Made by a program: the position numbers and the translations under genes. From an uncultured Oscillospiraceae bacterium (GTDB lineage: Bacteria > Bacillota > Clostridia > Oscillospirales > Oscillospiraceae), in contig CANQQI010000006.1 of assembly GCA_947625945.1 (NCBI GenBank), positions 1 through 39,782 on the forward strand: a stretch of 39,782 bases of DNA, given 5' to 3'. Positions 5,446-36,126 of this stretch are shown here, piece after piece; positions within the stretch are counted from its first letter, which is position 1; each line of letters starts with the position of its first letter. Under the pieces are notes generated by a model that was not told the origin of the DNA, searched no databases, and saw only the letters and a program-made list of their open reading frames with translations.

Positions 5446-5448
5446 ATC

Positions 5449-11043: not shown

Positions 11044-11132
11044 AAGGGCGCGGGAAAGTGACAAAAGGCATTGTTACAAATTGGAAGCTTGGATCTCATT
11101 CGCTTTCGTGTTAACATTAAGGAAGTGGAATC

Positions 11133-13915: not shown

Positions 13916-13987
13916 TAAAAAGACAGGATCTGAGGGGATTCGGCTGGGTGTTCTCTTGGTACAGGCGCTGACGGAGGAGGAGAACGG

Positions 13988-18881: not shown

Positions 18882-18896
18882 ATCAGGCGCCTCGCG

Positions 18897-20459
18897 TTAC
18901 CGCTTCAGCTCCCGCTGGACCTTGGTTCGGAACGCCGCGCCGGCCTTCCGCTCCTTTTCCCAGGCGGCGGCTTCCTTGGCGGTGAGCTTTACGTCCACCG
19001 GCTCTAATTCCGTTCCCTCACGCAGGGCCTTGATCTCCGCCTGCTTCAGGGGGACGGTCTTTTCTACGCTGAGGAATACTAAAAGTCCGGCCAGCACAAG
19101 GCCCGTGATGATCTCCAGCCCCAAAAAGGCGAAGATGATGACCTGTTCAACAGCGGCGGGCTGCACGGCGGCCACGGTGTTTCCGGCGGCGTCAATGGTG
19201 GGGGCGATATAGCCGGCCCCAGCCAGCATCCCGTTGAAAATGCCGGTGCAGATGCCCACCATGGCCACCGCGATAATGTTGTAGACAGACATGGCGGTGC
19301 CGTCACAGCGGATGCCGGACTTCCACTCCACATGGTCCAGCACATCGGCAAACAGCGCCATGAACACATAGGAACAGGGCAAACCGCCGATGTTCTTGAT
19401 GAACTGTCCAACCAGCACCACGACCATATTGCGCGGGGCCGCACAGCAGATGACGCCGCCGAGGGCATACAGGATGAAGCCCGCCAGCGTCACGTTCCGT
19501 TTGCCGAACCGCTTTGCCAGTGGCCACACGGCGAAGATGCCGATGCCCATGGGGATCCCGCCGATGGCGGAAACCATGGTCTGGGTGATGCCGTCGTTAT
19601 ATGTACCAAGCACATAGTTGCAGAAGTACACGAGCCCCAGGTTCTTGACACAGCTTCCCACGGTGTAAATAAGGAAGTAGGCCAGGATCAGCAGGATGTA
19701 CTTATCGGTAAAAATGATTTTCAGCTGGAGGACAAAGGGTATCTTCCGCTCGTCCCCGCCGGTCTCCTCCGTGACACGCTCCTTGGTAAAGTAATACTCC
19801 AACAGCGTAAGCGGCAGGGCCAGGATGGACAGCACCGACATCAGCGCGATCCACTTTCCCTTGTCCACCCCCAGCATGGGCATGATCACCATGGGGAAAA
19901 GCAGCGCCACCACGATACCGGACATCATGATGGAGGCGACCTGGTTGAAAACAGAGAGCTTGCCGCGCTGGGTGGTATCGCGGGTGGAGAGCGGCACCAT
20001 CAGATTGTGGCTCATGTTGTAAATGGTATAGGCGAAGGAGTAAAACAGGTTATAGCTGAGCATCACCCAGATAACCTGGACCGTCTCGTTTACGCTTGGC
20101 ACAGTGAACAGGAGGATGCCGGAAACGGCAACCAGCGGGGCGCTCAGCAATAGCCACGGCCGCGCTTTGCCCTGGGCGGTACGGGTGCGGTCAATGATGT
20201 ACCCCATGATCACATTGGTGATGGCGTCGATGACCTTGGATATCACCGGGAACACAGCCAAAAAAGCGCCGCCCCACACGGTCGTCAGCTTCAGCACATC
20301 GGTGTAGTACACGTTGAGGTACGTGGCCAGTACCGCGTTGAGCAGCAGGGCTCCGGCCGGGCCGATGAGATACCCCAGCCACCGCTCCCGCGCCGTGACA
20401 TTCTCATCTTTGATCCTGGAGGAAAAAGGCTTCCGCTTGAGCATTTCGCTCGTTTTCAT
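18897..20459 (-). CDS. GPH-type MFS symporter 2
   Basis: [41 protein letters not shown]; many predicted TM segments; homologous layout to symporter 1. Confidence 0.88.
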
Positions 20460-20511
20460 ACCGCATACATCCCCTTCTCATTTTTTGTGGAATAGTTCCC
20501 ACCATGTTATT

Positions 20512-20544
20512 ATTATATCGGTTCTGCACAAACTTTTCTTGCAT
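20512..20544 (-). promoter_or_regulatory. Putative activator-dependent promoter of module B: ATGCAA-N21-TATAAT
   Basis: Minus strand: ATGCAA at 20539-20544, TATAAT at 20512-20517. Confidence 0.45.
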
Positions 20545-20567
20545 TGTTGTTTGATTTATGGTAGAAT
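20539..20567 (+). promoter_or_regulatory. Putative sigma-A promoter for AraC-2: TTGCAT-N17-TAGAAT
   Basis: -35 at 20539-20544, -10 at 20562-20567. Confidence 0.5.
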
Positions 20568-20610
20568 TGTTCTAACTTCATAAGGCCGTTGCCAGAAGGA
20601 GGTATGGATC

Positions 20611-21810
20611 GTGGCAACCATAGACTATCCCTATCTCTGTCGCGCCATCAGCAGGTTGTCCAGTGTGCCGGTCCGCATTTATGAGCGGGGCCAGAAGACA
20701 TCTTTTCACAGTGTGATGCCCCTCCCTGTTGATCCGATCCTGCCTCATGAGCAACAGGTCCTTGCGTCAAAAGATCAGGTAGGGTATTTTATCACCGGGG
20801 ACTTCGACTTTTACGGTGTGATCCATGTCATGGATCATGCGGTTGTCATGGGTCCCTGCCGTCAGATCCCCCGCACGCCGGCGGAGCTACGCCGCCTGGC
20901 CTTCGACCTGGACGTGCCCCGTGGTGAGGTCGAACAGTTTGTCGCTTCCCTCGGCGCCATCATTCCTTTGCCGCTGGATTTTCTCTTGGAGATCCTGTGT
21001 ATGGTCAACTACATGATTTGTGGCGAGAGGCTCGGACACGGCGACTTACGGGTGACCGACTTGGAACAGGCGGCCCTCCGCCGTCAGGCCACGGAGGAGC
21101 AGACACGCGGAACTTTTGACGAGCCTGCGCCGGGAGGCGCTGTGGATGTCTACCACGCCTATCAGATCGAACAGGAGATGCTGGCTCTGGTTCGCGGCGG
21201 CGATGTAGAGCGGTTAGAAGAGTGGACCTCACACGCTCCCGCCGTGAAGCCCGGACAGATCGCTTCGGACACGCTCCGGCAGGAGAAGAACATCTTTACT
21301 GTTACCACAACGCTGGTGTCGCGGGCTGCCGTACAGGGCGGAATGGATGTGGAGGACGCCATGCGCCTTAGTGATTCCTACATCAAAAAATGCGAGCGCC
21401 TGTCTTCGCTGGATACTATTGTCAACCTCCAACTCAGTATGGTTCGCAATTTCACCGGGCAGGTGGCCCGGATCAACGATTTCGGCGCTCGCTCAGAGTT
21501 GGCGCAAAAGGTCGCTTCCTACATCCTGCATCACTTGTCAGAACCTATCCGCACAGAGGAGATCGCCCAAGCGCTGCATTACAGTCGAAGCTACCTGTCC
21601 ACACGTTTCAAAAAGGAGCAGGGCGTTGACCTGGCTGATTTCATCCAGCACTTTAAGGTTAACGAGGCAAAGCACCTGCTTCGGCATACCGACCGCAGCC
21701 TGCTCACCATCAGCAGCTACCTGGGGTTTTCCTCCCAAAGCCACTTCTCCCGGGTGTTCAAGACTGTGACCGGCGTGGCGCCGGGAGACTACCGAAAACA
21801 GAAAGCGTGA
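20611..21810 (+). CDS. AraC family transcriptional regulator (AraC-2), GTG start
   Basis: RBS aaggagg upstream of gtg 20611; C-terminal HTH IRTEEIAQALHYSRSYLSTRFKKEQGVDLADFI...ISSYLGFSSQSHFSRVFKTVTGVAPGDYRKQ. Confidence 0.9.
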   Translation: MATIDYPYLCRAISRLSSVPVRIYERGQKTSFHSVMPLPVDPILPHEQQVLASKDQVGYFITGDFDFYGVIHVMDHAVVMGPCRQIPRTPAELRRLAFDLDVPRGEVEQFVASLGAIIPLPLDFLLEILCMVNYMICGERLGHGDLRVTDLEQAALRRQATEEQTRGTFDEPAPGGAVDVYHAYQIEQEMLALVRGGDVERLEEWTSHAPAVKPGQIASDTLRQEKNIFTVTTTLVSRAAVQGGMDVEDAMRLSDSYIKKCERLSSLDTIVNLQLSMVRNFTGQVARINDFGARSELAQKVASYILHHLSEPIRTEEIAQALHYSRSYLSTRFKKEQGVDLADFIQHFKVNEAKHLLRHTDRSLLTISSYLGFSSQSHFSRVFKTVTGVAPGDYRKQKA

Positions 21811-21811
21811 C

Positions 21812-21851
21812 ACGCCAATGCCCTCCCTTTCATTGAGGAGGGCATTGGCGT
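21812..21851 (+). terminator. Intrinsic terminator-like hairpin, 15-bp perfect stem
   Basis: acgccaatgccctcc / ggagggcattggcgt followed by ttt, directly after the AraC-2 stop. Confidence 0.75.
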
Positions 21852-21924
21852 TTAGAGAAGTAGGAGGTGAGGCGCGGGAGGTCAGACAGTGCTGGTCTTC
21901 GCGTTGATTTCGTTCAAGATGTGG

Positions 21925-24900
21925 TCACTTTACCATGCCTTTCACCTCTACGGTGATACCGGTTTCCGCGTTGACGAACTGGATTTTATAGGTGTCGCCC
22001 TCCGCCGTGACGGTGTACTCAAGATTGCCGGTGAGGGTCAGCGTACCACCGTCAGTGGTCCAGGTGCCAGCGTCGATTTCAATATCGACGTATTCGGCGC
22101 TGTAGGTCACCATAGTGGAGAAGGTACCGTCGCCTTTGAGGACGATCTTGCCGGTGAGCCAGGCACCGTCGTCCAGGCCCGCGCCAGTGAGTTCGGCATC
22201 GCCGCCCGCACTCTGAGAGCTGCCAATTGTTCCGGCCACCTCCACGGTGATACCGGTTTCCGCGTTGACGAACTGGATTTTATAGGTGTCGCCCTCCGCT
22301 GTGACAGTGTACTCAAGATTGCCGGTGAGGGTCAGCGTACCACCGTCAGCGGTCCAGGTGCCTGTGTCGATTTCAATATCGGCGTATTCGGCGCTGTAGG
22401 TCACCATAGTGGAAAAGGTACCGTCGCTCTTGAGGACGATCTTTCCGGTGAGCCAGGCGCCGTCGTCCAGGCCCGCTCCGGTCAACTCCATGAATACATC
22501 GGACACAGGCTCACTGGGTTCCTCGCTCTCCGTGGGAGTCTCAGACTGCGTCGGCTCCTCGGAGGTGGAAGACGCGGTAGCATTGGGGTCGGCAGCCGCC
22601 ACTCCGCCAGTGCGGAAGAAGCAGAACCAGAAAATCAGCGTGAAGACGGCAGCCACAAGAATGACAATCAGGATCTTTACAGGAACATTGAGTTTCACAC
22701 TCCGCAGGAAGACGAACAGGGCAGCACACACCACTACGGTATCCAGAATCACCAGAAGGATCAACCAGTAGGGAGAGGTATCCGCGGCGGCGGACACAGC
22801 GGCGCTGTTGGCCTGGGTGTAGAGGATGTTGTGACTGGCCCGACGCATGGCCTGCTGAGCGGTGTTGGTGCTACTGTCCAGGTTGACTCCCATGAGGCAC
22901 AGCATCATATCTCCGCCGGCGCGAATGGCCAGGTTCACGTCCATCCAACTGGTGTTGCCCATAGCTGAGTCGGTGATAACCATGCCCTGGAAGCCCCACT
23001 CGTCTCGCAGTACCTCGGTGAGCAGAGCATGGCTGCCACCGGCCCAGGTGTTGCCCAGATTACTATAGGAGCTCATGATGGCTGTGGTCTTGCCTTCCTT
23101 CACCACGATCTCAAAGGCTTTCAAATACAGTTCCCGCATGGCCTGCTCATTGCACCACACGGAAATGGACAGGCGGTTGCTCTCCTGGTCGTTGAGGGCA
23201 AAGTGCTTCACGTAACCGTAAACGCCCTGGCTGGCATAGCCCTTGACCATTGCCGCACCCAGTTTGCCGGATAGCAGCGCGTCCTCGGAGTAGTACTCGA
23301 AGTTGCGGCCAGAATAGGGGGTGCGGTGGATGTTGACGGCGGGTGCGTACAGGCCCACCACATGGTTGGCAACAGCCTCAGCACCGAAAGTCTGTCCGAA
23401 TTCCTCCAGAAGAGCCTGGTTCCAGGAGGCGCCGATCAGCGCTTCGCTGGGATAGGACACGCCCTGGAGATTGCTGACCAAGCTATTGATACCGGCGGGG
23501 CCGTCCAAATCGTTGGTGGCAGGCTTGCCCACGCTGGCAACCTCGGGGGTAGACCAGCCGCCGTTGGCAATCATACTGGTCATATCCTCAACGCTAAGCT
23601 GCTCCAGAATACGTCCCCACTTGGGATCGTCGTAAGGAAGCCCCGCCATATCCTCCAGCGTCAGCCCGTTGTTTGCAAAGGTGATGGGCTGGGCGCTGGG
23701 ATCGTCATCGTAGACGGCAGGGTTGGAGAAAGCGGCCACAGTCTCATCAGAGGCGGTCTTTCCGTCCTGACGCGCGGTGGGGGTGGGGCCCTCCCAATCG
23801 GCGCGGGAGACATACTGCGTAATTTGGCCTGTGGACACATCGGTAAAGCGGTTGACAGCGGCGGTCAGGTCCGTGGCGCGGGGACTGCCCTCGCCGTAGG
23901 TGACGGTCTGATTCACCGTGTACTCACGGCTGTCGATGACCTCGTGAGCGTTGGCCATGAGCTTGATCTGATAGGTCCCGGCCTCCAGAACGTAGCAGCC
24001 GGCTCCGTTCTCATCATAGGAAGCCATGTCGTCCGCCGCAAAGGACAGGGTGAGCGTCTCGCTCTGCCCCGGCTCCAAAAGGTCGGTCTTGCCGAAGGCG
24101 GCCAGCACAACATGGGCTTTTTCAATACCACCTACGGTGTAAGGGGCGGTGAAGTAGACCTGGGCCACGTCCTTTCCAGCGGTATCGCCGGTGTTGGTCA
24201 CCTTCACCTCCATGGTGATGGTTCCATTTTCAGTAGTAAAATTCTCTATTGTCTGCTCAAAGGAGGTATAGCTGAGGCCGTAGCCGAAGGGATACTGGAC
24301 CACCTGCCGGTAGGCAGTCTCGTCGCACTCCCCGGTGGCATTGTCGATGTACCGGGTCTCGTAATAGCGGTAGCCCACATAGATACCCTCGACATACTCC
24401 ACATAGTTACGCTTATTCAGATTGCTGTAAGTGAAATCACCGGCATTCCAGTATGCGGGAGCGGTGCTGTGGTCGTATGCGTAGGTGTCGGGCAGGCGAC
24501 CGGAGGGGTTCACCGCCCCGGACAGGACCTTCCCCACCGCGTTCATGCCCCGGCTGCCGGGGCCGCCGATCCACAGCGCGGCGTCGATACTGTCATCTTC
24601 CAGGAAGCCCAGTTCCATGGCATTGGAGGAGTTGATGAGCACCACAACGGTGCCGAACCCCTGTTCCTTGATGAGGGCCAGCAGATCCTCCTCATCTTGG
24701 GTCAGCTCCAGATATTTGCGGTTTCCCACGCCAGTGTAGCCGGCCGCCTCCATATCCATGGGCAGATCGCCGCCCTCGCCGCCGATCCGGGAGAACATGA
24801 CGATGGCCACATCGGAGAAGGATTTGGCGTTCTGAAGGAGAGCATCGCCATATTGGGAAGCAGGCACCTCGGCAGGGGTGAAGTTGGAACCGGTAAAGCC

Positions 24901-25380
24901 TGACTGGTCAGGCCGCTTGACCCCGGAGTTTTTGTAGAAGTCCACCAGCTCCTGATTGACTTCAAAGCCAGCACTGGTGAGGCCGGAGATCAGGTCAGCG
25001 TTGGCGGAGGCGTCGCTGGCGCCGGAGCCGGTGCCGCCGTACAGCGGGGAAACGGAGGCGTAGCCGAACAGGTTGACCTTGGCGCCACTCTCCAGGGGCA
25101 GGGCGGCGTTTTTGTTCTCCAATAGCACGATACCCTCAGCGGCTAGTTCCTCCGCCATAGTAAGGGCGGCCTCCTTAGCCTGTTCGGGAGTGAGCTGTTC
25201 CGCTGTGGTGGAGCTGTGGTGTCCCGGCAGCCTGGTGTTCAGGTTGGCCGCCATGAACGCGTTGATGGCGGAGAACATCTGGATGCAAACGATGTTCACG
25301 ACCAGCGCAATCACCAGCAGGATGCACACGATGATAATGGGCAGCTTGCTTCTGCCCTGGGCGGTTTTTTCCTTGCTCAT
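21925..25380 (-). CDS. Membrane-anchored glycoside hydrolase family 3, reversed domain order, with internal double-TM segment and two C-terminal lipocalin-like domains
   Basis: N-terminal TM (LPIIIVCILLVIALVVNIVCIQMF); LAAEGIVLLENKNAALP and YPFGYGLSYTSF precede YAPAVNIHRTPYSGRNFEYYSEDA and GMVITDSAMGN; two TM segments (WLILLVILDTVVVCAALFVFL, ILIVILVAAVFTLIFWFCFF), acidic Ser/Thr linker, two near-identical domains. Confidence 0.92.
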   Translation of the reverse strand: MSKEKTAQGRSKLPIIIVCILLVIALVVNIVCIQMFSAINAFMAANLNTRLPGHHSSTTAEQLTPEQAKEAALTMAEELAAEGIVLLENKNAALPLESGAKVNLFGYASVSPLYGGTGSGASDASANADLISGLTSAGFEVNQELVDFYKNSGVKRPDQSGFTGSNFTPAEVPASQYGDALLQNAKSFSDVAIVMFSRIGGEGGDLPMDMEAAGYTGVGNRKYLELTQDEEDLLALIKEQGFGTVVVLINSSNAMELGFLEDDSIDAALWIGGPGSRGMNAVGKVLSGAVNPSGRLPDTYAYDHSTAPAYWNAGDFTYSNLNKRNYVEYVEGIYVGYRYYETRYIDNATGECDETAYRQVVQYPFGYGLSYTSFEQTIENFTTENGTITMEVKVTNTGDTAGKDVAQVYFTAPYTVGGIEKAHVVLAAFGKTDLLEPGQSETLTLSFAADDMASYDENGAGCYVLEAGTYQIKLMANAHEVIDSREYTVNQTVTYGEGSPRATDLTAAVNRFTDVSTGQITQYVSRADWEGPTPTARQDGKTASDETVAAFSNPAVYDDDPSAQPITFANNGLTLEDMAGLPYDDPKWGRILEQLSVEDMTSMIANGGWSTPEVASVGKPATNDLDGPAGINSLVSNLQGVSYPSEALIGASWNQALLEEFGQTFGAEAVANHVVGLYAPAVNIHRTPYSGRNFEYYSEDALLSGKLGAAMVKGYASQGVYGYVKHFALNDQESNRLSISVWCNEQAMRELYLKAFEIVVKEGKTTAIMSSYSNLGNTWAGGSHALLTEVLRDEWGFQGMVITDSAMGNTSWMDVNLAIRAGGDMMLCLMGVNLDSSTNTAQQAMRRASHNILYTQANSAAVSAAADTSPYWLILLVILDTVVVCAALFVFLRSVKLNVPVKILIVILVAAVFTLIFWFCFFRTGGVAAADPNATASSTSEEPTQSETPTESEEPSEPVSDVFMELTGAGLDDGAWLTGKIVLKSDGTFSTMVTYSAEYADIEIDTGTWTADGGTLTLTGNLEYTVTAEGDTYKIQFVNAETGITVEVAGTIGSSQSAGGDAELTGAGLDDGAWLTGKIVLKGDGTFSTMVTYSAEYVDIEIDAGTWTTDGGTLTLTGNLEYTVTAEGDTYKIQFVNAETGITVEVKGMVK
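21943..22488 (-). repeat. Tandem direct repeat, period 294 bp, encoding two copies of an 84-aa beta-rich domain
   Basis: Copies at 21943-22194 and 22237-22488; proteins differ at 4 of 84 positions by eye. Confidence 0.9.
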
Positions 25381-25435
25381 TTTTGTACGCTCCTTACTTT
25401 TTTCTTTCTGGGGCTTGACGATTGGCTCCGCTATG

Positions 25436-25455
25436 GTGTATTATATAAAACACAC
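25436..25455. promoter_or_regulatory. Imperfect palindrome gtgtattatataaaacacac, candidate TetR operator overlapping a promoter -10
   Basis: gtgtattat vs reverse complement gtgtgtttt; located between the divergent GH3 and TetR genes. Confidence 0.4.
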
Positions 25456-25468
25456 TGTTGGTTTGCAA
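25440..25468 (-). promoter_or_regulatory. Putative sigma-A promoter for the membrane-anchored GH3: TTGCAA-N17-TATAAT
   Basis: Minus strand -35 at 25463-25468, -10 at 25440-25445. Confidence 0.5.
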
Positions 25469-25516
25469 TCATCAATATGTATTCTAAACGTCGCAAAACC
25501 GACAAATCGGAAGGAA

Positions 25517-26131
25517 GTGTTGGGCTTGCGCCATTTTTCAGAAAATCCACGAAATGCACAAAAAACTGAGGCCCGGGAGAACCAGCGTACCCGCCTGACC
25601 AAGCGTCTGCTGCGGGAAAGTCTGCTGGATCTGCTGCGGGAAAAGCCGGTAGACCACATTACGGTGAAGGAGTTGTGCGAATATGCCGAACTGAACCGCT
25701 CCACTTTCTACGCCTATTACAATGATGTGCCCGCCCTCTATGAAGAGATGGGCAACGAGTTGGCAGACAGCCTGCTGGAATACGTCCAAGAGATGCAGGA
25801 GCAGACGGATGTCCACACCGAACCAATGCTCTCCTATATTCAGAACAACAAGGAGATGTTCCGGCTGTTGGTTTACTGCGATCACTACACCGAACTGAAT
25901 CAGGCCATCAGCCGGCGTATTTTCCGGCGTTTTCTGGACATCCAGCTACGGGACGCCCTGCCATATTCCTCAGAAGAACGTGACTATGCCTTCCAATTCC
26001 TCTTTATGGGCGGAACGGGCGTGATCCACTACTGGGTGCAGCAGAATTGCGCATTGCCCCCGCGTCAGGTCGCCCAACTGATCGACGGAATGATCGTGAA
26101 ACTCTTAAGCGCATGGACTCCGCGGCGGTGA
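25517..26131 (+). CDS. TetR/AcrR family transcriptional regulator
   Basis: RTRLTKRLLRESLLDLLREKPVDHITVKELCEYAELNRSTFYAYYNDVPALYEEM HTH. ORF track start 25073 is too long because it overlaps the divergent gene; likely start is GTG 25517 or TTG 25526 after aaggaag. Confidence 0.85.
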   Translation: MLGLRHFSENPRNAQKTEARENQRTRLTKRLLRESLLDLLREKPVDHITVKELCEYAELNRSTFYAYYNDVPALYEEMGNELADSLLEYVQEMQEQTDVHTEPMLSYIQNNKEMFRLLVYCDHYTELNQAISRRIFRRFLDIQLRDALPYSSEERDYAFQFLFMGGTGVIHYWVQQNCALPPRQVAQLIDGMIVKLLSAWTPRR

Positions 26132-26449
26132 CATCCAGCTCGTCTAAGTCCAAGTCGACCTCTACCACGTCATCCGGGATTTTTCTGGATATGGTGACCA
26201 TCGTCTCGGAGGTCCGGCACCTGGTGAAACAGATCTATGCCGAATATCAGCAGCTTTCAGGACTTTTCAAAAATACTACGGCCTGTCCCCAGCATCATGT
26301 TTCCGCGTCTCCGGGGAGGGGAAGAATCAGTAACCCTTTACGTTCAAACCGCATACCGCTGACTTAGGAAGGCTCAAAGACATTTCTCCATGAAGCCGAT
26401 CCTGCTATTGGGCGTCCTTCAATGAAACCTTCACCAAGGTGACGTCGCC

Positions 26450-26501
26450 CTTAGGTTCCACTGCCAATGGCGTGCAGATTCGAATCCTGTTGCCCGCACC
26501 A
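26450..26501 (+). pseudogene. 3' half of tRNA-Leu(UAG): anticodon loop, long variable arm, T-arm, acceptor 3' strand and CCA; 5' half absent
   Basis: cttaggt loop + tccac, variable arm tgccaatggcg, T-loop ttcgaat, acceptor tgcccgc-a-cca; no gcgggca 5' acceptor strand upstream. Confidence 0.7.
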
Positions 26502-26502
26502 C

Positions 26503-26540
26503 GTCGGAGCGGACTTTCGATCGTTCGCTCCGACTTTTTT
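26503..26540 (+). terminator. Intrinsic terminator downstream of the tRNA-Leu remnant
   Basis: gtcggagcg ... cgctccgac (9-bp perfect stem) followed by tttttt. Confidence 0.85.
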
Positions 26541-26675
26541 CAAAAACCGGCAGGCCCGCCCGCCCAGGATCAAGCATCCAAAACCCTTCCCCGTGACCGC
26601 CTTTGCTCAGGCGAGAAATTGACGGGTTTTCGGGCCGTGTTTCCCGGCCCTGGATCGAAAGGAGCGTATTCCGAT

Positions 26676-27341
26676 ATGTCAAAATCCATCTTCAACGCAG
26701 AGAAAATGTACACCTATATCCGGGGCTTCGCCGCCGGAGCCAACATGCCGGAAACCACACGGGCGCTGGGCTTCGCCAGGGAAAAGCACACGGGGCAGTT
26801 CCGCAAAAGCGGCGAACCGTACATCATCCACCCCCTGACCATGGCCTGCAACGCCCTGAGCCTGGGCATCCGGGACGACGGGATCATCGCCGCTACGCTC
26901 CTGCACGATGTCTGCGAGGACTGCGGCGTGGGCCTCGCGGAGCTTCCGGTCAATGAGACGGTCAAAAACATCGTGCGGCTCCTGACCTTCGACATTCGGG
27001 ACGGCGAGACCAAGGAGATCGCCAAAATTCGCTATTATAACGCCATCGCGGAGTGCCGGGAGGCGTCCATTACGAAGATCATTGACCGCTGTCACAACGT
27101 CTCCAGCATGGCCGGGACCTTTTCCGAGGAGAAGCTGCGGGCGTACATCGAGGAGACCCGCCATTTCGTCCTCCCCCTGCTCAAAAAGGCAAAGGCCCGG
27201 TACCCGGAGTATTCGGACATCCTCTTCGCCCTCAAGTATCACATGGTCAGCGTGGTGGATTCCATCGAGGCCGCCATGCTGGTGTACCGGCCCAAGGAGA
27301 AGCCGGCCTCGGACGGAAAAGACGGGCGGCCGTCGGATTGA
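26676..27341 (+). CDS. HD-domain protein of RelA/SpoT hydrolase type (221 aa, hydrolase region only)
   Basis: HTGQFRKSGEPYIIHPLTMA...AATLLHDVCEDCG (HD...ED) ...IIDRCHNVSSM; RBS aaaggag upstream of ATG 26676. Confidence 0.85.
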   Translation: MSKSIFNAEKMYTYIRGFAAGANMPETTRALGFAREKHTGQFRKSGEPYIIHPLTMACNALSLGIRDDGIIAATLLHDVCEDCGVGLAELPVNETVKNIVRLLTFDIRDGETKEIAKIRYYNAIAECREASITKIIDRCHNVSSMAGTFSEEKLRAYIEETRHFVLPLLKKAKARYPEYSDILFALKYHMVSVVDSIEAAMLVYRPKEKPASDGKDGRPSD

Positions 27342-27365
27342 ACAATACCTTGGAGGTAAAGACCC

Positions 27366-29825
27366 ATGATCACTGATTTTTTGAATTATTGGCTGAACAA
27401 ACGCAATAAAAACCCGCAGAATCAACACCCGGAAACCGGGTCTGCGGAGGGAAAGCCGGAATTTACGGCGCCGGACTCGGTCGTGAAGCACTATAACGTG
27501 CCGGCGGGCACCAAAAGGCTCCTCCCGGGGGTGCTGAAGGGACGGCGGGAGCTGGTATCCGTATCCGTCCCGGCGTCGGTGCGGACCATCGGAGGGAAGG
27601 CCTTCGCCGGCTGTGAGAATCTGGAAAGCGTGACGCTTTGCGAGGGGCTCAGGCGGATCGAAAACAAAGCCTTTGATGGGTGCAAAAAACTAAAGCGCAT
27701 CGTCATCCCGGACAGCGCGCGAGACGTCAGCGGCTCGGCGTTCACGGGCAGCGGCATTGTAGAGCCGGTGCGAACCGCCTCCGGCGACACGCTGCTCTAC
27801 TGCCCGGCCTCGGCGGCGGGGGCGGAGTTCACCGTGCCGGAGGGGGTGCGGCGTATTGGGACCGATGCCTTTTCGTTTCTTCCCGGCCTCAAGAAGGTCC
27901 ATTTCCCACGGTCTTTGGAGCGCATCGACCCTCTGGCCTTTTATAGTTGCGGGATCACGTCGATATCGCTCCCCAAATATCTGGAGGCGCTGGCGCGAAG
28001 CTCGTTTTTTGACTGCAGGGAGCTGAAAGATGTCTACTTCAAGGGAGAGGACCCCATCCGCCAGGCCATGTTCAATCTGCAGGCAAGGGGGATGTACTTC
28101 CTGTTGCCCGTCAGATGCGCCCCGCCTGACAGCGACCGGTACTGGGAAAGTCCGGCGTTCTGTGCCCTGGCGGAGGAATGCGTCTCCGGGAACGCCGGCG
28201 CCATGGAGCGGATGGTCGCATTCTTTGAGGAGAAGAGCAAGGCCGCGCCGGAGGAGGCCTTTTATCCCGCCGCCGCCAATTTTTGGAGATACCGGGCCTG
28301 GGAAAACGGCAGCGAGACCCAGCGGCAATGGCTGGAGCGCTACGTCAAGGCGTCGCCGGGGGAGCGGCTGCCCGCCGCCTGCCTGACGGAAACCCTGGAG
28401 GGCGACGCCCGGGGCTCCACGCTGAACGCCCTGGGGTTCTTCTTCTTTGAACCCGAAAGGGTGTACCACTTTGCGGGACTGGACGCCGACGGGGTGGTGG
28501 AGGTTTACGCCTATGTGCGCGAGGACGGCCCGGACGCGGACGACTTCAACCGGGAGCCGCTTTACGACTGGTGGTATCTGGACCGGGACCTGCGGCCCGT
28601 GCCGGGGGCGGCGTGCCTGCACAGCTACACCATCATCGACAGAGACATCTATGAAGTCCAGGACCGCTTCGCCAGGGCCCACGACGCGGTGGCCAAGGCC
28701 GGGACGCTCGAAAATATCCGGCGTGGACTGGAATTGGAGCAGGAGGGCCGGCTGGAGGAGGCGTTCAAATTCTATAAGCGCGCCGCGGATCAGGGCAGCG
28801 GGGACGCCATGTTTGCCGTGGGCAATCTCTATTTTCACAAGCGCTTCCACGGCGTCCCGAGCATCGCCAGTATCATGATGCCCTGGGACGAGGGGCCTTT
28901 ACAGCCGGACATGGCGGCGTCCTTTCGGTGGTTCATGAAGGCCGCCCAGGCCGGGAATATCAACGCCATGAGCAATGTGGGCGTCTTGCTCACAAACGGC
29001 ATCGGCTGCGGGAAGGACCCGCAAGCGGGCCGGTCGTGGCTGGAAAAGGCCGCCCAGGCGGGAAATAAGTACGCCGAGAAGGCCCTTCACGACTATTTTG
29101 ACGGGTTCGCCGGGGAACGGCTGACGGACCAGGCCTATGACCGGCAGATGGAAAAATTCTTCACGGCGGTGGAGCAAGCCGACACGCTCACGGCCCAGGG
29201 CATGTACGAGACGCTTATGAACGGGACGGAGACCCAGCTTTCCCGTCTGGGGCTCCGGCTGGCGGAGGCCCGCTATAGCCGGGGCGAGGCATACTGGGCG
29301 TACGCCTATCCCAATCTCCGAAAGGACCGCTCCTGCGCGCCGGTGGAGAGCTTCCGGTGCGGCTGGGCGTCGGCGGTGGTGGTGAATCTCCGGGCGCTTC
29401 CCGAAGGAGCGGCGATTACCTTCGCCCCAACCGGTATACTGCTTGTGCCCGTGCAAGGCATCCGGTTGAGCGGCGAGACGGTCTCCTACGAAGCCTCGGA
29501 CTTTGGATGGATCGGCCTCCCCCGCCGCCAGGCCCGGGTCCTGCGCCCCGCGCCGGGATATGTCAATGAAAACGCCACCGAAGCGCTCAAACACTGCGGT
29601 GTGAACGTGCCGAAGCTTCTGGAACACCTGAAGCTCACGGAACAGGAGGCGCTGTTCGTCGAATGCGGCGAGAAGGAGTACTCCGTGGAGATCGGATGCC
29701 TGGTTGGAACGGAGCTGCGGGTCCTGCTTCGCTATACCATCGGCGGCTGGGACCAGGGGGGAAACCATCCGGCGGAGGTAAGCGGCGTCACCCTGGATTG
29801 CGGTCCCGAAGCGCCCCAGTCATAA
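27366..29825 (+). CDS. Leucine-rich repeat (LRR_5/BspA-like) protein with Sel1-like repeats
   Basis: LESVTLCEGLRRIENKAFDGCKKLKRIVIPDS LRR_5 units; EEAFKFYKRAADQGSGDAMFAVGNLYF and FRWFMKAAQAGNINAMSNVGVLLTNG Sel1 units; RBS ggagg. Confidence 0.85.
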   Translation: MITDFLNYWLNKRNKNPQNQHPETGSAEGKPEFTAPDSVVKHYNVPAGTKRLLPGVLKGRRELVSVSVPASVRTIGGKAFAGCENLESVTLCEGLRRIENKAFDGCKKLKRIVIPDSARDVSGSAFTGSGIVEPVRTASGDTLLYCPASAAGAEFTVPEGVRRIGTDAFSFLPGLKKVHFPRSLERIDPLAFYSCGITSISLPKYLEALARSSFFDCRELKDVYFKGEDPIRQAMFNLQARGMYFLLPVRCAPPDSDRYWESPAFCALAEECVSGNAGAMERMVAFFEEKSKAAPEEAFYPAAANFWRYRAWENGSETQRQWLERYVKASPGERLPAACLTETLEGDARGSTLNALGFFFFEPERVYHFAGLDADGVVEVYAYVREDGPDADDFNREPLYDWWYLDRDLRPVPGAACLHSYTIIDRDIYEVQDRFARAHDAVAKAGTLENIRRGLELEQEGRLEEAFKFYKRAADQGSGDAMFAVGNLYFHKRFHGVPSIASIMMPWDEGPLQPDMAASFRWFMKAAQAGNINAMSNVGVLLTNGIGCGKDPQAGRSWLEKAAQAGNKYAEKALHDYFDGFAGERLTDQAYDRQMEKFFTAVEQADTLTAQGMYETLMNGTETQLSRLGLRLAEARYSRGEAYWAYAYPNLRKDRSCAPVESFRCGWASAVVVNLRALPEGAAITFAPTGILLVPVQGIRLSGETVSYEASDFGWIGLPRRQARVLRPAPGYVNENATEALKHCGVNVPKLLEHLKLTEQEALFVECGEKEYSVEIGCLVGTELRVLLRYTIGGWDQGGNHPAEVSGVTLDCGPEAPQS

Positions 29826-29835
29826 AATGGGGCGC
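29811..29835. terminator. Hairpin spanning the LRR gene stop codon, possible terminator
   Basis: gcgcccca / tggggcgc 8-bp stem, 9-nt loop; convergent gene arrangement. Confidence 0.35.
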
Positions 29836-29913
29836 CTGGGCCGTTTCAAAGCGGGGCGCTTTGCCGTCCGGTACCCTCTGTAAAAATGGGAAGGCGATTC
29901 CCGGCGGGTTGCG

Positions 29914-30987
29914 TTACGGTTCATGGGTGATCTCCTCCCACAGCTTGCGGAGCGATTCGTTCTCCATGCTATGGATCGCCGCGGCGGCGGCTTCCATGGC
30001 GGTGGTGCCCAAGGTGTCGAAGGCCGTCTGGCCCTTGGCGGCGCCGGCAAAACGCAGGCCGCCGGCAGAATAGTCGGGGTCCCGGTCAAATTCCTCCGCC
30101 AGCTTTTTCGCCGCCAGCAGAGAGGCCCGGGCCTCATCGAATCTGCCCAGCTTCAGCTGGGCGTGGGCAAGGCAGACCTCGAAACCCACACAGCTCTTGT
30201 CAAAGAGGTTGCTTTTTCCCGCCCGCTTCAGCCCCGCAAAGAACCCGGTCGCCAGTTCCAGGATCGCGGCGCCGGAGGCAAAATCCCCCCGCTTAAAGTA
30301 CACGTTCACATAGCCCATGACGGTCTGGATCAGCATGGCGGCGGCGGAGACCAGGGCCGTGGACAGGTACTCCTCCGCCTCCTCCGGGCGGTCGCAGTAG
30401 CCTGCCAGATATTGACCGATCACATCGTCGTTGATCCCCCTGGGATTGCTGCCTTTCAGCAGTTCCAGGGCTTTTTCCGCCTCTCCCAGCTCCATGTACG
30501 CCCCCGCCATGTCGTAGGTGACGGAAATTTCGCTGATCTTTGGGTCCGTATTCTGCCCCAGCAGTAACATGGAACGCTCCATAAGCTCTATTGCCCGGCG
30601 CAGCTGCGGCTGTTCACCGGTCATCAGGCCGAAAAGATAGTAGAGCATCGCGCTTTGGTGGACGATCTCAAAGCTGTTGGGATAGCGCAGCAGCGCCTTT
30701 TCCGCCTCGGCAAGTCCCTGGGCATCCCGGTTTTGCAGATACCCTTTGAGCCGGGCAACCGTATCGGCCTGCTTGTTGCTCTTTACCTCATAACCCAAAA
30801 GCACGTCCACCGAGGTGTCGAACAGGTCCGCCAGCTCCACAAGAATCGACAGGTCCGGCGCGGACAAGCCTGCCTCCCACTTGTAGACCGCCCCGACGGT
30901 GACGCCCAGGGCGTCCGCCAGCTGCTGCTGGGTCAGGGAATGGGCCCGGCGCTGGGCACGGATGTTTTCCGAAAGGTTGATCATCAT
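29914..30987 (-). CDS. XRE-family HTH regulator with C-terminal TPR-like region
   Basis: IRAQRRAHSLTQQQLADALGVTVGAVYKWEAGLSAPDLSILVELADLF; RBS aggagg upstream of ATG at 30987; ORF track extension to 31167 not needed. Confidence 0.88.
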   Translation of the reverse strand: MMINLSENIRAQRRAHSLTQQQLADALGVTVGAVYKWEAGLSAPDLSILVELADLFDTSVDVLLGYEVKSNKQADTVARLKGYLQNRDAQGLAEAEKALLRYPNSFEIVHQSAMLYYLFGLMTGEQPQLRRAIELMERSMLLLGQNTDPKISEISVTYDMAGAYMELGEAEKALELLKGSNPRGINDDVIGQYLAGYCDRPEEAEEYLSTALVSAAAMLIQTVMGYVNVYFKRGDFASGAAILELATGFFAGLKRAGKSNLFDKSCVGFEVCLAHAQLKLGRFDEARASLLAAKKLAEEFDRDPDYSAGGLRFAGAAKGQTAFDTLGTTAMEAAAAAIHSMENESLRKLWEEITHEP

Positions 30988-31107
30988 TAATTCCTCCTTT
31001 TTTCTTTCGATTATAGCACCGCCATTTGGCCTTTTAAACTCACCATCCGGATCATTTGGAGGGTGTTTTTTATACCGCCGGTAGGGTCCCGGCGGAAGAA
31101 ACGCGTC

Positions 31108-31136
31108 TTGACGGCGGGGCGGAAGTACAATATAAT
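31108..31136 (+). promoter_or_regulatory. Putative sigma-A promoter TTGACG-N17-TATAAT for carbonic anhydrase
   Basis: -35 at 31108-31113, -10 at 31131-31136. Confidence 0.75.
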
Positions 31137-31165
31137 TAAAGAAAGAAAAAGAAGGAGGGATCCCC

Positions 31166-31726
31166 ATGAACGCGTCCGTTCCCTGTTCGGCGGCCGACGC
31201 CCTGGACCGGCTAAAGGCCGGAAACCGGGCCTACCTACAATCCGTCACCCCCACCGGGGATATTTCGCCGGAGATCCGGCGGAAAACCGCCCTGGAGGGC
31301 CAGAAGCCCTTCGCCGTGATCATCACCTGCTCCGATTCCCGGGTCATCCCGGAGGATCTTTTCTCCTGCGGCATCGGGGAGCTGTTCGTCATCCGGGTGG
31401 CCGGAAACGTGCTGTCCTCTCACCAGCTGGGCAGCGTGGAATACGCCATCTCCCATCTGGGCTGCCGGCTGGTGGTGATGCTGGGGCACACCCACTGCGG
31501 CGCGGTGGACGCGGCGATCCATCACGACCCGGACGGGTATGTGAAGTCCATCACCGACGAGATCCGCCTGGCCATCGGCCAGGAGCGGGACGAGGAAAAG
31601 GCCTGCGTCCTGAATGTCCGCCGGGGCGTGGAGATCCTGCGCTCCAGCTTCCCGGAGGAGACGGTCCTGGGCGCCATCTACCGCCTGGAGGACGGGCAGG
31701 TGGAATTTCTGCCGGAGGAACCGTAA
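31166..31726 (+). CDS. Beta-class carbonic anhydrase
   Basis: ITCSDSRVIPE and LGHTHCGAVDAA zinc-ligand motifs; RBS gaaggaggg. Confidence 0.92.
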   Translation: MNASVPCSAADALDRLKAGNRAYLQSVTPTGDISPEIRRKTALEGQKPFAVIITCSDSRVIPEDLFSCGIGELFVIRVAGNVLSSHQLGSVEYAISHLGCRLVVMLGHTHCGAVDAAIHHDPDGYVKSITDEIRLAIGQERDEEKACVLNVRRGVEILRSSFPEETVLGAIYRLEDGQVEFLPEEP

Positions 31727-31736
31727 ATTGAATGCC

Positions 31737-31762
31737 AAGACCCCCGCGCCGGCGGGGGTCTT
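31737..31762 (+). terminator. Intrinsic terminator, 11-bp perfect stem
   Basis: aagacccccgc-gccg-gcgggggtctt. Confidence 0.75.
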
Positions 31763-31777
31763 GTCCTTTTCACGGCC

Positions 31778-31806
31778 TTGCATTTCGGGCCCGGTTCTGA
31801 TAGAAT
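31778..31806 (+). promoter_or_regulatory. Putative promoter TTGCAT-N17-TAGAAT for GH13
   Basis: -35 at 31778-31783, -10 at 31801-31806. Confidence 0.55.
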
Positions 31807-31832
31807 AGGGAAAAAGACGGGAGGGATCGCCC

Positions 31833-33548
31833 ATGGAGTACGCCGCAGTCTGCCACTTTGCCGACGCAAGGTACTGCTTTGCCCTGGACAAGGACCGGTT
31901 TTTGTTCCGTATCCGGGTGAAAAAGAGGGACGTGCGGGAGGTCCTCCTGCACTGCCAGGACAAGTACCTGCCCCTCTGGCGGAAGGACACCCGCCGGATT
32001 GTTGCCATGTCCCTTGCCGCCCAGGACCGGGTCAGCGACTATTTTGAGGTAGAGCTGGCCTTCCATGTGGTCTGCCTGCGCTACTTTTTTGAGCTCCGGG
32101 GGGCGGATGGGGAGACCGTCTACTACGGAAACTACGAATTTTCCCCCGTGCCTTTTACAGATATTGAGCGGATGTTCGACTGTCCCCAAAATCTGCGGGA
32201 GGAGGAACGGCTCACCGTCCCCGACTGGGCGGCGGGCCGGGTGGTGTACCAGATCTTCCCCGCCAGCTTCGCCCCGGAAGGAGAAATCGCGGAAAAGAAG
32301 TGGTACCGGGCCCCGGTGGATCACCGGCGGGATCTGGGCGGCACCATCCGGGGCGTCATCCAGCGGCTGGACCATCTCCAGGCCCTGGGGGTGGACGTGC
32401 TCTACATGACCCCGGTATTCCGGGCCGGGACCGTCCACAAATACGACACCCTGGATTATTACGCCGTGGACCCCGCTCTGGGCACCCTGGAGGATTTGAA
32501 GGAGCTTACGAACCGGGCCCATGAGCTGGGCATGAAGGTCATTCTGGACGCGGTGTTCAACCACACCTCCCGCCAGTTTTTCGCCTTCGCCGACATTGAG
32601 AAAAACGGCCCCGCCTCCCCCTACATCGACTGGTACTACATCGAGGGCTTCCCCCTGAAAAGCGCCTGGGGGCAGATCCCCAATTTCAAGACCTTCAGCT
32701 ATTTCGGCGGGATGCCCAAGCTGAACCTGCGCAATCCCCAGGTGGAGGCCTATTTTTTGGACGTGGGCCGGTACTGGGTCCGCGCCTGCGGCATCGACGG
32801 ATGGCGGCTGGACGTGGCCGACGAGGTGAGCCACCGGTTCTGGCGGCGGTTCCGGGAGGCCGTCAAGGCGGAGAAGCCCGACGCCCTGCTGATCGGGGAG
32901 GAGTGGCACTACGCCGGGGACTTCCTCCAGGGCGAAGAGTGGGACAGCGTGATGAACTACCACTTTTACAACAGCGTCCTGGATCTGGTGGCTCGGGAAT
33001 GTATCCCGGTGTCCGCGTTTTTTGAAAATCTGGGTTTTTTGCGGGGGAATCTCCACCCCGCCGTCTTCGGGGTGCTGTGGAACCTGATCGGCTCCCACGA
33101 CACGGAGCGGTTCCTCCGGGCGGCGGGAGGCAGTCTGCCCAAGCTGAAGATGGCGGCAGCCCTCCAGCTGCTGCTGCCCGGAATGCCCATGATCTACTAC
33201 GGCGACGAATACGCCATGGACGGGGGCGGCGACGGGGACAGCCGCCGGGGTATGGTATGGGACGAAAAATATCAGGTCCCGGCGATTTTCGACTGGTATC
33301 GCCGGCTCACCGCCGCCCGGCGCGCCCACCCCTGCCTGTACCGGGGCCAGGTGACGGCCTACCAGGTAGACGACCGGTCCGGGACCGCCGCCCTGACCAT
33401 GAAGCTAAGTGGCGACCAAGTCACCCTCCTGCTCCACTGCAAGGACGGCGCCGCGCCCCTGCCCCATTACGCCGGGCGGCAAGAGCTGCTCAGCGCCTCG
33501 CCCTTTGGCGGCTGTCTGGGCCCCTGGGAGGCCGCGCTGATCGGATAG
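31833..33548 (+). CDS. Alpha-amylase family GH13 (neopullulanase/cyclomaltodextrinase-like, CBM34-like N-terminus)
   Basis: VIQRLDHLQALGVDVLYMTPVF, VILDAVFNHTS, GWRLDVADEV, LIGEEWHYAG, LIGSHDTERF. Confidence 0.92.
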   Translation: MEYAAVCHFADARYCFALDKDRFLFRIRVKKRDVREVLLHCQDKYLPLWRKDTRRIVAMSLAAQDRVSDYFEVELAFHVVCLRYFFELRGADGETVYYGNYEFSPVPFTDIERMFDCPQNLREEERLTVPDWAAGRVVYQIFPASFAPEGEIAEKKWYRAPVDHRRDLGGTIRGVIQRLDHLQALGVDVLYMTPVFRAGTVHKYDTLDYYAVDPALGTLEDLKELTNRAHELGMKVILDAVFNHTSRQFFAFADIEKNGPASPYIDWYYIEGFPLKSAWGQIPNFKTFSYFGGMPKLNLRNPQVEAYFLDVGRYWVRACGIDGWRLDVADEVSHRFWRRFREAVKAEKPDALLIGEEWHYAGDFLQGEEWDSVMNYHFYNSVLDLVARECIPVSAFFENLGFLRGNLHPAVFGVLWNLIGSHDTERFLRAAGGSLPKLKMAAALQLLLPGMPMIYYGDEYAMDGGGDGDSRRGMVWDEKYQVPAIFDWYRRLTAARRAHPCLYRGQVTAYQVDDRSGTAALTMKLSGDQVTLLLHCKDGAAPLPHYAGRQELLSASPFGGCLGPWEAALIG

Positions 33549-33563
33549 GGGCCGGAAAATTCC

Positions 33564-33592
33564 TTGACGGAAGGAATCGGATGGGCTATAAT
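33564..33592 (+). promoter_or_regulatory. Putative sigma-A promoter TTGACG-N17-TATAAT for galT
   Basis: -35 at 33564-33569, -10 at 33587-33592. Confidence 0.75.
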
Positions 33593-33639
33593 GGCCCTAT
33601 TCGGGGGCGAAAGGCCCAAATCATTTGGAGGCAAGCGCC

Positions 33640-35130
33640 ATGGTCAATGAAGCGATTTCTCAGCTGATTTCCTACGCCCGTTCCACCGGGCTGATTGAGG
33701 AGGGGGAGACGGCGTGGGCGGTCAACGCCCTTTTAGAGACGCTGAAGCTGGATTCCTACACCGATCCGGGTAAGACCTGGGACCGGGTGGACCTTCCCCA
33801 GGTGCTGCAGATCCTGACCGACGACGCCTGCGCACGGGGCGTGGTGCCGGAGGACTCGCCGGTGTACCGGGACCTGTTCGACACGGCCCTCATGGGCCGC
33901 CTGACCCCCCGGCCCGCCCAGGTGACGGAAAAATTCCGGGCCCTGTACGCCCAGAGCCCCCAGGCCGCCACGGACTGGTACTACCAATTCTGCCAGGACA
34001 CCAACTACATCCGCCGGGACCGGATCGCCAAGGACGTGAAGTGGATCGCCCCTACGCCTTACGGCGACTTGGACATCACCATCAACCTGTCCAAGCCGGA
34101 GAAGGACCCCAAGGCCATTGCCGCCGCCCGGAATCTGCCTGCCGCCGCCTACCCTCGGTGCCAGCTGTGCCGGGAGAACGAGGGTTACGCCGGTCGGGTC
34201 AACCATCCCGCCCGGCAGAACCACCGGCCGGTGCCCATCACCATCAACGGCAGCCCCTGGTTCTTGCAGTACAGCCCCTACGTCTATTACAATGAACACT
34301 GCATCTGCTTCAACCGGGAGCACACCCCCATGAAAATTGACCGGGCCTGCTTCGCCAAGCTCCTGGACTTTGTGGGGCAGTTTCCCCACTATTTCGTGGG
34401 CTCCAACGCGGACCTGCCCATTGTGGGCGGCTCCATTCTGGCCCACGACCATTTCCAGGGCGGGCACTACACCTTCCCCATGGAGCGCGCCCCCGTGGAG
34501 ACGCCGGTGGCGTTCCGGGATTACCCCCAAATTCGGGCGGGGATCGTCAAGTGGCCCATGTCGGTAGTGCGGCTCACCGGGCCGGCGCCGGAGGCGCTGA
34601 TCAGCCTTGCGGATCGGGTCCTCACCGCCTGGCGGGGGTATACCGACGAGGCGGCCTTCATCTACGCCGAGACCGATGGGGAGCCCCACAATACCATCAC
34701 CCCCATCGCCCGCCGCCGGGGGACGGACTATGAGCTGGACCTGGTGCTGCGAAACAACATCACCACGCCGGAGCATCCCCTGGGGGTGTACCATCCCCAC
34801 GCCCAGCTGCACCATATCAAAAAGGAGAACATCGGCCTGATCGAGGTGATGGGCCTGGCGGTCCTCCCCGCCCGGCTGAAGGTCGAGCTGGCGGCGGTGG
34901 CGGAGGCCCTGGCAAATGGCGGAGACCTGCGGGGTAGCGTTTTGACGGAAAAGCACGCCCCCTGGGCCGAGGGGTTCCGAGGGAAGTACGCCCTGACGGC
35001 GGAAAACGCCCTGGACGTCGTGAAAAAGGAGACCGGGCTGGTGTTTGCCCGGGTTCTGGAGGACGCCGGGGTCTACAAGCGGACGCCGGAGGGCCGGGCG
35101 GCCTTCCTGCGCTTCCTGGAGACCATATAA
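33640..35130 (+). CDS. galT: UDP-glucose--hexose-1-phosphate uridylyltransferase, Firmicutes-type GalT
   Basis: Characteristic Firmicutes GalT sequence including FVGSNADLPIVGGSILAHDHFQGG and GVYHPHAQLHHIKKENIGLIEVMGLAVLPARL; start moved from 33625 to ATG 33640. Confidence 0.93.
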   Translation: MVNEAISQLISYARSTGLIEEGETAWAVNALLETLKLDSYTDPGKTWDRVDLPQVLQILTDDACARGVVPEDSPVYRDLFDTALMGRLTPRPAQVTEKFRALYAQSPQAATDWYYQFCQDTNYIRRDRIAKDVKWIAPTPYGDLDITINLSKPEKDPKAIAAARNLPAAAYPRCQLCRENEGYAGRVNHPARQNHRPVPITINGSPWFLQYSPYVYYNEHCICFNREHTPMKIDRACFAKLLDFVGQFPHYFVGSNADLPIVGGSILAHDHFQGGHYTFPMERAPVETPVAFRDYPQIRAGIVKWPMSVVRLTGPAPEALISLADRVLTAWRGYTDEAAFIYAETDGEPHNTITPIARRRGTDYELDLVLRNNITTPEHPLGVYHPHAQLHHIKKENIGLIEVMGLAVLPARLKVELAAVAEALANGGDLRGSVLTEKHAPWAEGFRGKYALTAENALDVVKKETGLVFARVLEDAGVYKRTPEGRAAFLRFLETI

Positions 35131-35133
35131 AAA

Positions 35134-35402
35134 GAAGCCGGAGCGACCGCTCCGGCTTCCTTGTTTGCCGTCCGCAGACGGCAAACCAAGTTCAATCATT
35201 TTTTGCCGGGGCGTGTACCTGGCAAAAAATACCTTACAGGCTGAGAGTGTGCGAGCCGGGGACAAAGGCCCCGGCGAGTGCGCGGGTCAGCCTGCAATCC
35301 CCACCAAACGGAAGCCCAGCGCAGCGGGTTCCGTTTGGAAGGCTGTCAAAAACGTTCGTTTTTGACAGCCGCAAAGGAAGCCGGAGCGGCTGCTCCGGCT
35401 TC
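35134..35402. repeat. Array of seven palindromic hairpins bracketed by two near-identical terminator-like hairpins
   Basis: Stems at 35134-35159, 35163-35186, 35198-35230, 35255-35275, 35304-35338, 35341-35370 and 35377-35402. Confidence 0.85.
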
Positions 35403-35418
35403 TTTTGCGTTGTATGGA

Positions 35419-35955
35419 TCAATAGTTTTCCGCGTGGACCTCGAAATAGCTCTGGGGATGATTGCAGGTGGGGCAGACCTCGGGGGCTTTGGTGCCCACC
35501 ACGATGTGGCCGCAGTTGCGGCACTCCCACACCTTGACCTCGCTCTTTTCAAAGACCTGGGCGGTCTCCACGTTCTTTAACAGGGCGCGGTAGCGCTCCT
35601 CATGGGTCTTCTCAATGGCGGCCACCAGGCGGAACCGGGCGGCCAGCTCCGGGAAACCCTCCTCCTCGGCGGTCTTGGCAAAGCCCTCGTACATATCCGT
35701 CCACTCGTAGTTCTCCCCGGCGGCGGCGGCGGCCAGGTTGGCCTTGGTGTCGCCAATGCCCTGGAGCTCCTTGAGCCACAGCTTGGCGTGCTCCTTCTCA
35801 TTGTCGGCGGTCTTCAGAAACAGAGCGGAGATCTGCTCGTAGCCCTCCTTCTTCGCCACGCTGGCAAAATAGGTGTACTTGTTCCTGGCCTGGGATTCGC
35901 CGGCAAAGGCGGCTTCCAGGTTCTTCTCGGTTTGGGTGCCTGCGTATTTGCTCAT
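35419..35955 (-). CDS. rbr: Rubrerythrin
   Basis: [21 protein letters not shown] diiron domain plus [31 protein letters not shown] rubredoxin-like domain. Confidence 0.95.
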
Positions 35956-36006
35956 GGGACATACCTCCTGATCAAAATTCCGGCGGCCTCGGCTGCCTTT
36001 TGGGAT

Positions 36007-36035
36007 ATTATATCGGATCGGAGGGAAAAATGCAA
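36007..36035 (-). promoter_or_regulatory. Putative sigma-A promoter TTGCAT-N17-TATAAT for rubrerythrin
   Basis: Minus strand -35 at 36030-36035, -10 at 36007-36012. Confidence 0.65.
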
Positions 36036-36126
36036 TCCCTATTTGAGAATTATTCTTATTTTATCGCAGCGTATGGCCTTTTCGATGGAGACGGTCTACA
36101 GAAGGTCCCCCTGCCAATGCTGGTCG

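Follow-up and report, generated by a model that had tools for sequence, protein, structure and literature searches.

The window analysed here, a stretch of 39,782 nt that is the entire contig C6 of the draft genome G000 of an uncultured Oscillospiraceae bacterium (2.19 Mb, 224 contigs, 92% complete), contains the second half of a tRNA-Leu gene without the first. This raises the question of whether the fragment is the scar of an integrated element and, if so, of what kind. A preliminary description had read it as a 3' half of tRNA-Leu(UAG) that lacks its 5' half, keeps its native terminator and decays in the T stem. The two features concerned are:

26451 to 26501, forward strand: orphan 3' half of the native tRNA-Leu(UAG), comprising the anticodon loop, variable arm, T arm (A53), 3' strand of the acceptor stem and CCA.
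26503 to 26540, forward strand: native terminator of the split tRNA gene, identical behind the intact tRNA of genome G036.

All four points of that description hold. The 3' halves of intact tRNA-Leu(UAG) genes from at least ten congeners match positions 26451-26501 through to the CCA, with alignments that begin exactly at the anticodon loop. In the closest relative, G036, contig C7 carries a complete tRNA-Leu(tag) and is 99% identical over 26451-26545, which includes the 3' half and the terminator (stems 26503-26511 and 26526-26534, then T6). As the same terminator stands behind the intact G036 gene, it represents native context, and as position 53 is A in the window and G in G036, the half is decaying. 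ARAGORN found no tRNA in the window and Rfam, at gathering and relaxed thresholds, no match at 26451-26501, so that no complete tRNA folds at this site; a search for the 5' half within the window returned chance GCGGGC words only. As a separate observation, the TCGGAGCG-type terminator hairpin (window 26503-26540; loci L003, L005, L007, L008 and L009) recurs in the genus, both after several tRNA genes and at other places.

The missing half was located through the sister genome G036, whose tRNA-Leu(UAG) is intact. With its 5' half as query, a match was obtained in G000 at C19:6233-6271, which reads GCGGGCATGGTGGAATTGGTAGACTCGGTGGA-CTTAGG and then switches to TGATGTCACCTCAGTGAAGG. This left junction (C19:6233-6290) thus consists of a tRNA 5' half, which carries a T32C change, followed by CTTAGG and an inverted arm. 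When the 5' half (C19:6233-6265) and the window 3' half were joined, ARAGORN called a tRNA-Leu(tag), as the 5' and 3' halves from eight genomes also do when joined; the element-flanked halves submitted separately gave no tRNA call. On a single G036 contig, sequence homologous to C19:1-5840 (93.6%) is connected through the intact tRNA to the homologous counterpart of window 26451-29850 (95.5%). Since this empty site joins both flanks via an intact tRNA, C19 and C6 represent the left and right flanks of one insertion, a linkage that in G000 is given by the synteny of the sister genome and by the presence of only two arms, with one end on each contig. The left part of the element is C19:6266-20597, and the window is divided as follows:

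1 to 26449, unstranded: right part of the element; the contig starts at 1 and the stretch is absent from the G036 empty site.
26502 to 36063, forward strand: chromosomal sequence flanking the split tRNA gene on its downstream side, in synteny with G036:C7 (about 94-97%).

Both ends of the element share a 22-bp inverted arm, CCTTCACYRAGGTGAYRTCRCC, of which G000 holds only two close matches, namely the left end (reverse complement CCTTCACTGAGGTGACATCACC) and the right end, which form inverted repeats:

26428 to 26449, forward strand: right end (arm), CCTTCACCAAGGTGACGTCGCC, matching in inverted orientation the left arm at G000:C19:6269-6290.
26450 to 26455, forward strand: core or crossover CTTAGG, common to the element end and the tRNA anticodon loop, from the attL/attB comparison.

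The attL in C19 is CTTAGGTGATGTCACC and the attB in G036 is TTTAGGTTCC; attP and attB share just about 5-6 bp, with the core TTAGG(T). Inverted arms at both ends imply a palindromic attP of about 48 bp, typical of large serine recombinases, and the two arms, when joined, would give a near-perfect palindrome of that length around CTTA (CCTTCACTRAGGTGACATCACC-CTTA-GGTGATGTCACCTYAGTGAAGG). The left junctions of G028, G249 and G121 retain the host T before TTA, and their right junctions have C in G028 and T in G249 and G121. From these bases the crossover falls most likely at TT; together with the symmetry axis they make 26451-26452 the probable crossover dinucleotide.

A draft as fragmented as this one, in 224 contigs and 92% complete, could in principle produce a chance pseudogene or an assembly artefact that has nothing to do with an island. 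This explanation is scarcely tenable, as fusion at this very point, with this arm, is seen again in many independent genomes, isolates included, and an island in G026 has the same end. The arm at 26428-26449 is the conserved end that adjoins split tRNA-Leu genes in other genomes, which places the fusion far beyond chance. Contig G026:C20 carries window 7909-26452 at 96-98% identity and ends at the same arm, with a different flank to the right of the island end and no tRNA half there. Because this copy stops at window 26452, the right boundary is fixed independently. The proposal that the half tRNA marks the right edge of a glycoside hydrolase island as a scar of integration is thereby borne out, and the empty site that was to be sought in a relative lacking the island is that of G036, where the intact tRNA-Leu joins both flanks. 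The occurrence of the same right end beside non-tRNA sequence in G026 suggests that other sites are used or that later rearrangement occurs; the island end at about position 23244 of G026:C20 (L180+L181) is near an ORF resembling a CCA-adding enzyme, and may be a secondary integration site or the product of a later rearrangement.

Recurrence was assessed by a scan for the left end over 84,980 species genomes, which returned 53 exact left ends in 42 contigs, all from Clostridia and nearly all labelled as Oscillospiraceae or its genera. The 33-nt tRNA-Leu 5' half precedes the exact left end in all 53; a fuzzy arm combined with a stricter 5'-half test gave 62 junctions in 38 contigs. No match to the exact left and right arm patterns was found in 2.9 million viral contigs. 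Outside the family, arm matches with two mismatches were mostly chance occurrences in coding sequence. An exception is G319:C28:342-363 (L038), in a genome belonging to a different family within the order: a similar arm stands there in front of a tRNA-like 3' end, and an intact tRNA-Leu(UAG) is present in G319 as well.

Complete elements with the same layout are present in G249 (C4, 10815-29625; 18.8 kb) and G121 (C1, 333074-359381; 26 kb). They encode two adjacent serine recombinases of about 430 and 552 aa, both with the PF00239/PF07508/PF13408 combination (Resolvase, Recombinase and zinc-ribbon), which in G121 gives the domain set of a large serine recombinase, as well as a MobA-type relaxase (PF03432) and an AAA_25 ATPase. 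A site-specific recombinase and a relaxase are thus found on one element in both G121 and G249, a combination expected of an integrative mobilizable element (IME). Homologous recombinases lie at most 8 kb from the left end in 7 of 42 loci, and the G026 copy has relaxase-like and MobC-like ORFs, identified by eye. The window itself retains only a recombinase remnant:

248 to 1144, reverse strand: decayed large serine recombinase, residues 60-329 of 427, with the N-terminal catalytic part and the C-terminus missing.

The remnant is 66% identical to LSR-B of the complete elements (residues 60-329) and 45-50% identical to LSR-A, and is the only LSR-B match at E<=1e-60 among the 36 genomes searched. 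From its linkage to the element ends, the recombinase pair would be the enzyme that acts on them. The recombinase at C19:18706-20597 was rejected as the integrase, not being of the arm-linked family. The left part on C19 (L026:7366-18787; L062:707-2279) also has genes resembling type I restriction-modification systems, together with a CcrB-like serine recombinase that is unrelated and is spread over two reading frames.

No complete tRNA is present at the left or the right junction. An intact tRNA-Leu(UAG) sharing the last ~50 nt of the orphan half had been predicted, and this expectation failed: the island supplies a different one, a complete, divergent tRNA-Leu(tag) at C19:6468-6551, about 200 bp inside the left end, hereafter the rescue tRNA. 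In G000 the UAG-type tRNA-Leu 3'-half pattern occurs only in the rescue copy and the orphan half. With copy number assessed by a degenerate sequence pattern on draft genomes, exactly one intact tRNA-Leu(UAG) was found in each of G000, G121, G249, G060, G028 and 13 further carriers, among them isolates of Flavonifractor, Pseudoflavonifractor, Oscillibacter, Gemmiger and Angelakisella. In each case checked this sole copy is the rescue tRNA, which is unique in the genome within the sensitivity of the pattern; orphan 3' halves are also present in several. In the fuzzy-arm set of 38 contigs, a rescue tRNA-Leu(UAG) is found in all 30 whose sequence continues beyond 355 nt, and the scanned stretches of these contigs contain no other UAG tRNA-Leu. 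G018 has a split 3' half alongside an intact native-type tRNA-Leu(UAG) elsewhere in the genome. Near-identical rescue tRNA-Leu genes with an unusual TCTTAGGAGCC loop are found in L026:6468-6551 and L140, in genomes of two species, which suggests transfer of the tRNA together with the element.

An ordinary tyrosine-integrase island is classically recognised by a tRNA 3' half at its edge (PMC4383910): its attP carries the tRNA 3' half, an intact tRNA is re-formed at attL, and the half that is displaced remains at attR. Here, however, no intact tRNA is rebuilt at either junction: the left one has just the 5' half and then the arm, as in 53/53 exact left ends, and the classical attL/attR arrangement is rejected on this ground. 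The sharing of about 5-6 bp between attP and attB, the inverted-repeat arms, the linked serine recombinases and an intact tRNA of different sequence, at least 60 bp in from the element end, also speak against it, and we consider such an island very improbable. It is no easier to credit that the two halves are still used as a trans-split or intron-like tRNA joined as RNA. Both persist, with promoter and terminator, and are broken in the anticodon loop; yet they are 18-40 kb or more apart with arms and cargo between them, carry changes (a damaging A53 in the 3' half, T32C in the 5' half), and the element supplies a complete tRNA-Leu(UAG).

The rescue tRNA is more probably transcribed from the promoter of the gene that was split. 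Sigma70-like sites precede the outermost 5' half at 13 of 36 loci (1.1 expected by shuffling), and show no enrichment before the rescue tRNA (1 of 26, 0.7 expected); four rescue tRNAs start just 34-43 nt behind the arm. The simplest reading of these counts and of the close spacing is promoter capture, with the rescue tRNA presumably read from the captured promoter. Most elements have a conserved RNA leader of ~75 nt, with a three-way junction, 11-93 nt before the rescue (or split former rescue) tRNA. It is located at L026:6319-6399 on C19 of G000 and has 37 further matches, mostly in L103-L144. Compensatory changes affect six of its pairs (20 cells, versus 6.0 in shuffles). With no match in Rfam, the leader, present in just 2 of 61 family genomes including G000, is possibly a new structured RNA; one may guess at a role in processing or anti-termination. 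All else being as proposed here, the rescue tRNA might instead be driven by its own promoter or by the structured leader, given the conserved leader, or in L103 a TTGATT-N17-TAAAAT sequence, before many rescue tRNAs. We regard this variant as possible, though the less likely one, in view of the missing sigma70 enrichment before rescue tRNAs, several of which lie just 34-43 nt behind the arm.

Insertions also appear to accumulate at the same locus. At least 18 contigs carry two to six successive tRNA-Leu 5' halves, spaced about 100-1600 bp apart, and in G031:C152 the two corresponding 3' halves are separated by 1.9 kb. The stacked halves and their spacings look as if later elements had entered earlier rescue tRNAs, the order of nesting being deduced from the arrangement.

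The cargo in the window is as follows:

1810 to 3003, reverse strand: AraC-family regulator (PF12833).
3109 to 20459, unstranded: GH2, GH39, GH3, GH43, GH1, GH3, GH78 rhamnosidase and two MFS_2 sugar transporters (Pfam).
20611 to 21810, forward strand: AraC-family regulator (PF12833).
21925 to 25380, reverse strand: GH3 enzyme (PF00933/PF01915), 98% identical in G026:C20.
25073 to 26131, forward strand: TetR-like regulator (PF14278, residues 250-341); ORF as listed, with the true start probably further in.

As G026 shares window 7909-26452 at 96-98% identity, this glycoside hydrolase cargo (GH1, 2, 3, 39, 43 and 78, with the sugar transporters) has been transferred. In G031 an ANTAR-like regulator ORF (L022:598-1182), beside sequence resembling glutamine synthetase, ends just left of a right arm, and in G018 (L024, near 10123) this sequence again stands before the arm, a cargo common to two genomes.

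Direct observation covers the two junctions and the empty site, the rescue tRNA and, within the sensitivity of the pattern, its uniqueness, as well as the recurrence, the stacked 5' halves and the recombinase and relaxase of intact relatives. On this basis the half tRNA marks, with a probability of about 0.88, the right-hand junction of an integrative mobilizable element that splits and replaces a tRNA by means of serine recombinases. In the mechanism that we propose, one or more large serine recombinases would recombine the ~48-bp palindromic attP with an attB located in the tRNA-Leu(UAG) anticodon arm, leaving two dead tRNA halves and rebuilding neither. The element's own complete tRNA-Leu(UAG), just inside the left end, would then substitute. 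The fixed orientation would set this tRNA directly downstream of the host tRNA promoter, from which it is probably read. Being the genome's only tRNA-Leu(UAG), the rescue copy should make the element hard to lose, and judged by this copy number the host probably cannot survive without it; being also the next attB, it would let later elements nest inside. In G000, where the recombinase has decayed, the island and its glycoside hydrolase cargo look fixed. The mode of insertion is best supported as splitting with replacement of the serine-recombinase type, in place of the usual reconstitution by a tyrosine integrase.

More generally, it is likely that one family of serine-recombinase elements in the Oscillospiraceae destroys the single-copy tRNA-Leu(UAG), seizes its promoter and substitutes its own tRNA behind a new structured leader. 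Each insertion would renew the target, so that hosts repeatedly replace this tRNA horizontally while islands stack (up to six split 5' halves seen). Target destruction with replacement would thereby operate with a second type of recombinase chemistry as well, and in islands of common gut bacteria that are not viral. It would act as a simple addiction, in which a cell that loses the island should die unless the site is precisely repaired, would account for the horizontal replacement of a core tRNA gene, and would show how one site can take up several islands and still remain available. The arm with the split tRNA can serve as a marker by which such islands are mapped together with what they carry, in this case enzymes for plant glycans; software that searches for a complete tRNA accompanied by a fragment would overlook or misplace these islands. 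The system may also offer an orthogonal serine integrase whose chromosomal target is conserved in Oscillospiraceae.

Among known systems, SCC elements (CcrA/CcrB) likewise have two adjacent large serine recombinases and target a single-copy chromosomal gene. That gene is rlmH. Unlike here, the SCC target is restored, and the match of the present recombinases to Ccr models is far below their cut-offs. Gut IMEs such as IME_Rho_tet (PMC12904643) also share a relaxase, a serine recombinase, terminal inverted repeats of about 21 bp and hosts among gut Bacillota, but that family inserts mainly in MAFF2-type small ORFs and has no tRNA target. In classical tRNA genomic islands, as collected in Islander (PMC4383910), a tRNA fragment bounds the island as here, but a tyrosine integrase restores an intact tRNA at attL, which the present element does not do; Islander reports no serine recombinases known for tRNA genes. 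Rare cases are cited in PMC3218068, namely phiRSM1 (tRNA-Ser 3' end) and Mycobacterium AICEs (tRNA-Leu), and the Dehalococcoides ssrA islands (PMC3146451) have paired recombinases, tandem accretion and a module with a tRNA-Gly-like structure. In these, as in the present element, serine recombinases target tRNA-like genes. As far as the cited passages describe them, phiRSM1 uses the tRNA 3' end and the Dehalococcoides islands the ssrA T-loop, leaving a 20-bp 3'-end repeat, whereas here the anticodon arm is used; a replacement tRNA of the same isotype, which the present element brings, is not described there for any of the three. Our literature search, largely confined to journals outside subscription, found no serine-recombinase element that splits and replaces a tRNA.

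The logic is the same as that of tRNA-dependent lysogeny (Guerrero-Bustamante and Hatfull 2024, PMC10865867), which is defined for tyrosine integrases of temperate actinobacteriophages: attB lies in a host tRNA gene, the core is short, a functional tRNA is not rebuilt, and the element brings a tRNA, here a tRNA-Leu(tag) inside the left end. The linked enzymes here are PF00239/PF07508 serine recombinases instead of a tyrosine integrase, and the complete elements have a relaxase and AAA_25 where a temperate phage would be expected, their exact arms being absent from the viral contigs. Unlike those phages, the present elements thus combine large serine recombinases, a palindromic attP and a relaxase in Oscillospiraceae, with the rescue tRNA beside attL in the direction of host tRNA transcription, serial nesting and a conserved leader RNA. 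Splitting with replacement is therefore already known for tyrosine-integrase phages, and what differs here is the enzyme, the element type, the stacking and the structured RNA.
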